DNA of 64,000 nucleotides, taken from positions 251,765-315,764 of the forward strand of contig NZ_JH725094.1 of NCBI RefSeq assembly GCF_000278155.1, given 5' to 3'. The notes under the pieces were generated by a model. The model searched no databases and was not told the DNA's origin. It saw only the letters and a program-made list of their open reading frames with translations. Position numbers and translations under genes: made by a program. Position 1 is the stretch's first letter. Every line of letters begins with the position of its first letter. The stretch comes from Bartonella doshiae NCTC 12862 = ATCC 700133. Lineage in GTDB: Bacteria; Pseudomonadota; Alphaproteobacteria; Rhizobiales; Rhizobiaceae. Below, piece after piece: positions 3,668 to 54,821 of this stretch.

Positions 3668-4483
3668 TTAAGCCATACCAAAAAGATTAAAAGGTGTATT
3701 CATATCAGATATACACGAACCAATTAAATAAAGAAGAAAAGCCGCCCCTATTAGCCCATCCATACGATCCATAAATCCACCATGTCCAGGCAATAAAGAG
3801 CTAGAATCCTTAACAGAAAACTGCCTTTTTAACCATGACTGCCCCAAATCACTTATTTGTGAAACAATTGATAAAACCAGAGCAAGTAATGGCACAAAAA
3901 ATTCTGCTAAACTTATGTCAAACGAATAAAAAGAAATCAATATGCCGCCAGAAACCCCAACAAATGTACCACCAATCGCTCCTGCCCATGTTTTATTAGG
4001 AGAAAATTTTGGTGCTAATTTAGGGCCACCAAATGTACGCCCACTAAAATATCCGGCAATATCTGTGCCCCACACTATCGTAAATAAAAAAACAACAACC
4101 CAGAAGCCTAGCCTCTCATCTCCCCGTAAAAAGCATAAAGCTACAACCGGAAAAGATGCATATAAAAAACCAAAAAAAACCCAAAAACTTTTCCTTATAG
4201 GTCCAATAGCCAACAGTGCCGCTAAAGTTGTCAAAACACAAAAAATCAATGAAGAAGATACATTTAATATCAACAAGGAACCAAAAAACAAATAAAATAT
4301 AGCCGCTAATATTTTTTGAGAAATACACCACTTCTCCTTGGTGATACTTATCCACTCATAAAGAATAAAACCACCAATAACCCATACAAACACAAAAAAT
4401 AAAACTCCCCCAAGCCATGTTAAAAGCAAAGTGATAATGCCAAAAATTAAAGCAGTCAGAATACGAGAAACAAGATTAGACAA
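3668..4483 (-). CDS. cdsA: Phosphatidate cytidylyltransferase
   Basis: CdsA makes CDP-diacylglycerol from phosphatidate and CTP in the inner membrane, the branch point of phospholipid synthesis. About eight hydrophobic segments are visible. The C-terminal family signature is intact: SQISDLGQSWLKRQFSVKD, then LLPGHGGFMDRMDGL. I prefer the TTG at 4483 (N-terminus MSNLVSRILTALIFG, 271 residues) because GGATG precedes it and because the family usually starts this way. A longer TTG start at 4495 is possible but has no ribosome-binding site. Upstream, uppS is decayed, so cdsA may now depend on transcription from frr or a weak promoter in the gap. Confidence 0.93.
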   Translation of the reverse strand: MSNLVSRILTALIFGIITLLLTWLGGVLFFVFVWVIGGFILYEWISITKEKWCISQKILAAIFYLFFGSLLILNVSSSLIFCVLTTLAALLAIGPIRKSFWVFFGFLYASFPVVALCFLRGDERLGFWVVVFLFTIVWGTDIAGYFSGRTFGGPKLAPKFSPNKTWAGAIGGTFVGVSGGILISFYSFDISLAEFFVPLLALVLSIVSQISDLGQSWLKRQFSVKDSSSLLPGHGGFMDRMDGLIGAAFLLYLIGSCISDMNTPFNLFGMA

Positions 4484-4599
4484 AATAACATCCAAACAAT
4501 AAAAATAGAAAATACAAACTCAAAAACTGATACAAGTAAAAAACCTATCATCCATCATTTCTACATTTGTACCTTCGGAAATTTTTTCTACAAATTAAC

Positions 4600-53153: not shown

Positions 53154-53609
53154 ATGCGATTAACCAAACAAACAAATTATGCCCTCCGGATGCTCATGTA
53201 CTGTGCAGAAAATCAAGGATCTCTTAGTCGTATTCCAGAAATTGCCAAAGCATATGCCGTTTCCGAGTTTTTTTTATTTAAAATCCTTCAGCCGCTGGTT
53301 GAAGCAGGTTTTATACAAACAGTACGAGGACGCAATGGAGGAGTTAAATTAGCTAAACCCGCAGCAGAAATTTCAGTAGCTGACGTTGTGAAAGTAACGG
53401 AAGATAACTTTTCCATCGCAGAATGTTTTGATACGACAGAATCTAACTGCCCATTGGTTGGTTTTTGTAGCTTGAATATTACATTAAAAAAAGCATTAAA
53501 TGCTTTTTTTGATGTTTTATCCATGACATCTCTTGCTGATTTGCAGCAATCATCCTTTCAAAATCAATCAAAGATTGATAGCGATGAAATAATTAAGACA
53601 ATCAATTAA
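53154..53609 (+). CDS. rirA: Rhizobial iron regulator RirA (Rrf2 family)
   Basis: RirA is an iron-sulfur-cluster Rrf2 regulator that represses iron-uptake genes in Rhizobiales when iron is plentiful. The 151-residue protein begins MRLTKQTNYALRMLMYCAEN, followed by the winged-helix text SRIPEIAKAYAVSEFFLFK and VRGRNGGVKLAKPA. The three cluster cysteines are at positions 91, 99 and 105 (AECF, SNCPLVGFC), the same positions reported for rhizobial RirA. It starts at an ATG seven bases from GAGGAGG. It occupies the slot where dusB-ntrB-ntrC sit in relatives and precedes ispDF by 18 bp. Confidence 0.95.
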   Translation: MRLTKQTNYALRMLMYCAENQGSLSRIPEIAKAYAVSEFFLFKILQPLVEAGFIQTVRGRNGGVKLAKPAAEISVADVVKVTEDNFSIAECFDTTESNCPLVGFCSLNITLKKALNAFFDVLSMTSLADLQQSSFQNQSKIDSDEIIKTIN

Positions 53610-53627
53610 AATGAAAGGAAATGAAAC

Positions 53628-54821
53628 ATTTCTATTGCAGCAATAATATTAGCCGCTGGACGTGGTAAAAGAGCAAAATCTCCACAAAAAACTCCAAAAC
53701 AATACCGACTTTTAGGACAAGAGCCGGTCATTTGCCATACTGTGCGTTGTTTTTTGCAACATCCAGACATTACAAGAATCATCTTAGTTATTCATCCAGA
53801 TGACGATCAAATCTGTCAACAAGCCATTGCCGACTTTAAAAAACATCTTATCATTGTTGAAGGAGGCAACACACGTCAAATTTCCACCTTACATGGACTT
53901 CGTGCTTTGGAAAAATATAAACCAAAATATGTACATATCCATGATGGTGCACGCCCTTTTATCAAAAACGAACTCCTTGAACAAATCCATACCACTGTCA
54001 ACCATCAAGAAGGAGTTCTCCCCGTTCTCGCCATCTCTGATACCCTCAAACGTGTAAATGATACTCATCATGTTTTAGAAACAATTCCACGCACACATCT
54101 TTATAGTGCACAAACTCCACAATGTTTTCCCTTTGAATCCATCCTCAAAGCTCATGAAAAAGCAAAGCAAGCTTGCAAACAAGAATTTACCGACGATTCA
54201 GCAATTGCCGAATGGTTTGGGCTTCCTATGCGGACCATCCCTGGAGATCCTAACAATATAAAAATTACATGGCATGAAGATTTTTACACAGCACATCTCT
54301 ATCTCCAGAAAAAAATGCAAATGTTCCCTGATATTCGTACCGGCAATGGTTATGATGTTCATTCTTTCGAAGAAGGAACTTCTCTTACATTATGTGGAAT
54401 AAAAATTCCTTTTCATAAAAAATTAAACGGACACTCCGATGCTGATGTTGCTCTTCATGCACTCACAGATGCCCTTCTTGCTACGCGAGGTGCAGGAGAT
54501 ATTGGTACACATTTTCCTCCCTCTGATCCTAAATGGAAAAATATATCATCAGAAATTTTTCTCCGTCACGCCATTGATATTATTAAACAAGCAAATGGAC
54601 GTATTGCCAATGTTGATATTACACTAATCGCTGAAAACCCTAAAATCAGCCCCTACCGTCATATAATGACAGAAAATCTTATGAAGATACTCACAATTTC
54701 ATCAGATCGTATCTCACTTAAAGCGACAACAAATGAAAAACTTGGATTTATTGGTCGTGAAGAAGGTATTGCAGCTCTTGCAACTGCTACAGTTCTTTAT
54801 CCAGGAGAAATTCCCAAATGA
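53628..54821 (+). CDS. ispDF: Bifunctional IspD/IspF enzyme of the MEP isoprenoid pathway
   Basis: The fused enzyme carries 2-C-methylerythritol 4-phosphate cytidylyltransferase (IspD) and 2,4-cyclodiphosphate synthase (IspF). The IspD half (about 1-230) has the CTP loop ILAAGRGKRAKSPQKTPK at its very N-terminus, then HDGARPF and TDDSAIAEWFG. The IspF half (about 235-397) has GNGYDVHSF, GHSDADVALHAL and ENPKISPYR. In this frame no ATG, GTG or TTG precedes the CTP loop; a TGA lies just upstream and the first usable codon is ATT 53628, eight bases from AAAGGA. One extra A relative to an ATGAAC start would also explain this. Confidence 0.88.
   Translation: MSIAAIILAAGRGKRAKSPQKTPKQYRLLGQEPVICHTVRCFLQHPDITRIILVIHPDDDQICQQAIADFKKHLIIVEGGNTRQISTLHGLRALEKYKPKYVHIHDGARPFIKNELLEQIHTTVNHQEGVLPVLAISDTLKRVNDTHHVLETIPRTHLYSAQTPQCFPFESILKAHEKAKQACKQEFTDDSAIAEWFGLPMRTIPGDPNNIKITWHEDFYTAHLYLQKKMQMFPDIRTGNGYDVHSFEEGTSLTLCGIKIPFHKKLNGHSDADVALHALTDALLATRGAGDIGTHFPPSDPKWKNISSEIFLRHAIDIIKQANGRIANVDITLIAENPKISPYRHIMTENLMKILTISSDRISLKATTNEKLGFIGREEGIAALATATVLYPGEIPK

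Follow-up and report, generated by a model that had tools for sequence, protein, structure and literature searches.

A conserved AUU codon as the very likely translation start of ispDF in Bartonella and related genera

The ispDF locus and its start region

The window, a stretch of 64,000 nucleotides of the Bartonella doshiae NCTC 12862 genome, carries an ispDF coding sequence of 397 codons plus stop at 53628..54821 (+ strand). The fused IspD and IspF domains were confirmed in a single frame. Pfam IspD (PF01128) matched residues 3-227 of the ispDF frame over profile positions 1-220 of 221, and Pfam YgbB (IspF, PF02542) matched residues 236-389. The translation was also recognised as bifunctional IspDF by NCBIfam NF006899, scoring 503.8 bits against a cut-off of 417. 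The MEP pathway, including IspDF, is essential and has been studied as an antibacterial target. Upstream lies a rirA-like Rrf2 regulator gene (53154..53609, + strand; Pfam Rrf2), which matched the NCBIfam RirA equivalog at 253.1 bits against a cut-off of 193. It ends 18 bases 5' of the AUU codon (53628..53630, + strand) with which the ispDF coding sequence opens and which is conserved across Bartonella.

The IspD nucleotide-binding loop LAAGRGKRA, which we take to be CTP-binding, is encoded at 53649..53675 (+ strand), 5' of all canonical in-frame starts in the window. The codons leading into the loop are TGA (53622-53624), AAC (53625-53627), ATT (53628-53630), TCT, ATT, GCA, GCA, ATA and ATA, with no ATG, GTG or TTG in the ispDF frame between this TGA and the loop. 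A preliminary description of this DNA had noted the missing canonical codon and had placed ATT 53628 eight bases after AAAGGA. Direct reading of the window found the former exact and verified the latter, with AAAGGA, the putative Shine-Dalgarno sequence, at 53614..53619 (+ strand). An upstream start via rirA read-through was considered and rejected, being blocked by the rirA stop TAA at 53607-53609 and by the in-frame TGA. The 80-base RNA fold predicted over the ispDF start was no stronger than shuffled sequences (z -0.60; 49 of 200 as good).

The earliest canonical codon of the ispDF frame is GTG 53742, after 38 codons and past the loop. When 50 window ORFs (at least 110 codons, mutual overlap below 30%) were compared, ispDF had the latest first ATG, GTG or TTG, 39 codons past its stop. 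The runner-up, at 27 codons, was an ORF of 118 codons that had no Pfam match. Going by these 50 ORFs, the late first canonical codon of ispDF exceeds chance expectation. A truncated protein starting at GTG 53742 is what an ORF list restricted to canonical starts reports, as this is the first such codon of the frame. However, that protein would lose 38 N-terminal residues, and with them the loop and the beginning of the Pfam IspD domain. In core Bartonella, moreover, the first canonical codon from the loop onwards lies 7 to 101 codons past ATT, at seven different distances. A start at GTG 53742 is thus extremely improbable.

Elsewhere in the window, a cdsA-like gene (Pfam CTP_transf_1; 3668-4519, - strand) was seen to have 249 codons of its frame without ATG. 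Its earliest canonical codon is TTG, where no Shine-Dalgarno pairing is predicted (+0.8 kcal/mol).

Conservation of the codon within Bartonella

IspDF was located in 70 of 71 Bartonella genomes, the miss being G062 (85% complete). In core Bartonella the homologous codon was ATT in all 57 genomes, a set that includes the window and one genome with a split gene (G026). In the divergent Bartonella (n = 13; approximately 61-64% protein identity), presumably bee symbionts, it was ATA in nine genomes and ATT in four. ATT was also found in all 18 named Bartonella contigs, a set that overlaps the 70 genomes and includes B. callosciuri, taylorii, koehlerae, vinsonii, clarridgeiae, bacilliformis, grahamii, elizabethae and tribocorum. 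The split ispDF of G026 (L089; contig 1, 433285-434474), in which residues 1-233 and 225-397 were matched in different frames, is either a broken gene or an assembly error.

The preliminary description had left two readings side by side, a start at AUU and one extra A in ATGAAAC, with the gene then starting at that ATG. The second, whether as a sequencing error or as a true frameshift, draws on the ATGA at 53621-53624, and L029, L033 and L089 are arranged similarly. However, between 15 bases 5' of ATT and the loop, an ATG in any frame was present in just 5 of the 57 core genomes. The remaining 52 keep ATT yet have no ATG to shift from, so the extra-A frameshift fails. Sequencing error is excluded by the homologous codon itself, which is identical (ATT) in other Bartonella genomes and is ATT or ATA throughout the Bartonella relatives. 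We therefore give the extra A next to no credence. By contrast, the AUU reading was strongly supported by this comparison of start regions, with ATT or ATA in 70 of 70 Bartonella genomes that have the gene and further support from the Shine-Dalgarno region and from related genera.

A Shine-Dalgarno-like 4-mer was present in all 57 core genomes, its first GG lying 8-10 bases 5' of ATT. Over the 70 Bartonella genomes, predicted pairing with the anti-Shine-Dalgarno sequence averaged -7.7 kcal/mol, compared with -1.5 kcal/mol at in-gene control positions; 1.6% of these controls reached the strength of the Bartonella mean.

Canonical codons before the loop were found in 6 of the 57 core genomes. 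Five have a TTG two codons 5' of ATT, where it crowds the Shine-Dalgarno sequence, and one has a GTG 3' of ATT. Such codons were also found in 6 of the 13 divergent genomes, as TTG or GTG five codons 5' in five of them, directly in front of AAGGGG, and as ATG four codons 5' in the sixth. An ATT or ATC codon also stands directly 5' of the proposed start in 12 of the 13 divergent genomes, in 8 of 32 genomes of the related genus g17 and in 2 of 57 core genomes. The exact start codon is thus less sure in divergent Bartonella and g17 than in the core.

At internal positions of a gene, AUU can replace AUC and vice versa. Across 56 core genes (the count leaves out L089, whose gene is split), 14 columns consist entirely of isoleucine and column 1 alone has a single invariant codon. 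Codons 2 and 4 are invariant as well, which makes the column-1 test weak in the core; g17, in which neighbouring codons vary widely, provides a better one. In 30 g17 genes, whose isoleucine usage favours ATC (509 ATC, 321 ATT, 56 ATA), the codon varied in all 16 all-isoleucine columns inside the gene, whilst the start was ATT in all 32 readable genomes of the genus. Related genomes are non-independent draws and the codon-column comparison carries no probability.

As a positive control we read infC, the textbook case of an AUU start, which was located in each of the 71 Bartonella genomes. It had an ATT start in all 31 loci read (L235-L265), the window's genome included, in many of them behind AAGGAG.

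The homologous codon in other genera

ATT, ATA or ATC (together AUH) was found at the homologous codon in 49 of 50 genomes of five further genera (g17, g51, g96, g6 and g7), the remaining one having ATG. Together with core and divergent Bartonella, this gives AUH in 119 of 120 genomes from seven groups. The codon was ATT in all 32 readable genomes of g17, which we assume to be Brucella/Ochrobactrum-like (35 were searched; three gave fragmented matches), in seven of seven g96 genomes and in the single g6 genome (L222). The six g51 genomes had ATA (four), ATT (one) and ATC (one). Three of the four g7 genomes had ATT, whilst the fourth, L300, had ATG. ATG was also found in L094, the sole genome of g73, which reads ATG TCT GTT GCA where g6 reads ATT TCT GTT GCA, and L099 (g79) had TTG. 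The ATG codons of L300 and L094 indicate that this is a start position. Judged by its sequence, the alternation of ATG and ATT at one codon looks like a start codon in flux.

These genomes also bear on a longer protein, in which AUU would be an ordinary isoleucine codon and translation would begin further 5', at ATG, GTG or TTG, in g17 if not elsewhere. An in-frame canonical codon precedes the loop in 30 of 32 g17 genomes, several of which share ATG AAT CTT TTG, as well as in 3 of 7 g96 genomes, in 1 of 6 g51 genomes and, as GTG, in L301. Yet in 72 of the 119 AUH genomes the frame offers no such codon from the upstream stop to the loop, so the longer protein is impossible there, as it is in the window. 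The g17 codons also shift or disappear between species (L179 and L185 have none), while ATT is invariant and other isoleucine codons vary. Predicted pairing in g17 averaged -5.2 kcal/mol before ATT (-3.4 to -10.1), with in-gene controls at a mean of -2.4 kcal/mol that were taken from a position one codon off, g17 having one extra residue before the loop. Before the upstream canonical codons of g17 it was mostly poor, at +2 to -3.5 kcal/mol, with -4.2 to -6.3 kcal/mol at four. A longer protein as the general explanation is thus very improbable, although individual genomes with a canonical codon before the loop could conceivably make a longer form.

A genuine upstream start, in line with the longer protein, may exist in g64. 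In 14 of the 15 loci read there (L102, L285-L298; L285 has TTG) a GTG stands 15 codons ahead of the loop and looks like a start. By its sequence, g64 ispDF seems to begin at that GTG, which would give it an N-terminal extension that is absent from core Bartonella. L102 had been considered as a case of change to ATG at the AUU position and was dropped, as g64 has the GTG farther 5'.

From the rest of the family we took 81 different start regions, mostly from a 151-genome sample. One belonged to the g6 genome again and another was truncated at the end of its contig; in every one of the 79 usable regions the loop was preceded by an in-frame canonical codon, which was ATG in 76. The presence of a canonical codon alone does not separate g17 from these genomes, but its non-conservation and poor pairing do. 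In other families of the order a canonical codon was found in 11 of 11 readable start regions (17 were taken, of which six were unreadable by pattern).

In a tree of IspDF proteins with 74 rows (a quick search with SH-aLRT support only, L105 left out, and L222, L223 and L087 as long branches), all AUH groups fell within one set of 51 rows with a support of 96. This set also holds the canonical-start groups g73, g27 and g79 and one g64 row. Five state changes are needed on the tree, which gives no direction for them; the outgroup did not lie on one side of a branch. By eye, a RirA-like gene lies 5' of ispDF in the examples from Bartonella, g6, g7, g27 and g73, and one Bartonella locus (L075) has no upstream ORF in its short flank. 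As nearest upstream ORF it was absent from the examples scanned in g17 (four), g51 (two) and g96 (one), indicating that the AUH start is independent of the RirA neighbour.

A weak start and its known counterparts

Taken together, the sequence comparisons leave little doubt that AUU 53628 is the ispDF start codon. The upstream AAAGGA would place the 30S subunit at this codon, and initiator tRNA would read it as formyl-methionine, giving a protein with the N-terminus M-S-I-A-A-I-I-L-A-A-G. Pairing between initiator tRNA and AUU is poor, and since IF3 discriminates against such complexes, initiation would be inefficient, with the good Shine-Dalgarno sequence rescuing part of it. By analogy with known AUU starts, lowered ispDF expression is the most likely effect, and the retained AUU (or AUA or AUC) most likely holds IspDF synthesis low.

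That relatives keep an unusual, weak start suggests that selection limits the amount of IspDF, and we consider it probable, from these sequences, that AUU is kept as a weak start that limits IspDF synthesis. Alternatively, AUU could be a real start that became fixed in an ancestor as a frozen accident, compensated by the Shine-Dalgarno sequence and without regulatory role. The strong predicted pairing in Bartonella fits such compensation. The canonical codons at the same position in L300, L094 and L099, which are also in keeping with an accident, show that change is possible. However, a single point change would yield AUG, and AUH was nevertheless kept in all but one of the 120 genomes, over seven groups. 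Genera g51 and g96 retain it despite weaker predicted pairing (-4.7 and -4.1 kcal/mol, respectively), which 20% of in-gene controls equalled. The results of a published reconstruction also count against an accident, with 1 of 61,358 ancestral AUG starts switched to AUU and switches to AUG far commoner among GUG (202 of 5,080) and UUG starts (43 of 2,468) (PMC5622118). A frozen accident is thus rather unlikely.

Control of the infC type, at which the preliminary description hints, is plausible. AUU may tie IspDF synthesis to IF3 activity in such a manner, with IF3 as a possible sensor, although we regard IF3-linked regulation of ispDF as tentative. It is conceivable, if doubtful, that isoprenoid synthesis is coupled to the translation machinery in Bartonella and the related genera. 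As Bartonella ispDF and infC both have AUU behind a Shine-Dalgarno sequence, the level or activity of IF3 would in that case set IspDF supply. Such coupling would match membrane and cell-wall carrier lipids to the translation state of the cell, and the weak start would be retained across several genera regardless of the upstream gene.

Retention of an AUU or AUA start is known for few bacterial genes, and the conserved cases that we came across in the literature encode regulators, IF3, an RNA-modifying enzyme and a small protein. That an essential metabolic enzyme has an AUH start in seven groups within a single family points to initiation being selected to be weak or sensitive to IF3. There is also a consequence for annotation, as gene finders restricted to ATG, GTG and TTG would truncate IspDF or wrongly extend it. 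No earlier report of a non-canonical ispDF start was found among the matches listed in a search of open-licence full-text literature, which has most subscription papers outside it, and the term 'start codon' is absent from PMC12583986, a paper that mentions both ispDF and Bartonella.

The phenomenon is of a kind already known from infC and pcnB and, later, from sigR, cvfC1 and ccpN, to which ispDF is an added case. Like ispDF, infC has an AUU start behind a Shine-Dalgarno sequence, and its autogenous control is known. The infC product is itself the factor that reads start codons, whereas IspDF is a metabolic enzyme, for which a direct feedback loop is not obvious. PMC9410913 names infC and pcnB as the two E. 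coli AUU genes. As for ispDF, pcnB is a gene for something other than IF3, and its translation is limited by AUU according to the title of Binns and Masters (2002); it is called nonessential in PMC9410913, unlike IspDF of the MEP pathway.

Streptomyces sigR has a GTC start through which IF3 represses it, as was shown by experiment (PMC5472188). The paper also describes a non-canonical start kept across a genus, as in ispDF, a very extensive ribosome-binding site and annotations that misplace the start. The sigR gene differs from ispDF in its GTC codon, in encoding a sigma factor and in the experimental proof of IF3 dependence.

AUU and AUA starts are described in PMC13009471, namely those of S. 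aureus cvfC1 (AUU), ccpN (AUA; also in B. subtilis) and citZ (AUA). The starts of cvfC1 and ccpN are conserved, with an extended Shine-Dalgarno sequence. S. aureus reporters in poor medium gave approximately 10% of AUG expression from AUU and AUA starts, and expression from the ccpN AUA rose to 30% in rich medium, making it medium-dependent. As with IspDF, citZ encodes a metabolic enzyme, although its AUA occurs in NCTC 8325-lineage strains only. These genes differ from ispDF in belonging to Firmicutes and in having had initiation mapped by ribosome profiling (PMC13009471).
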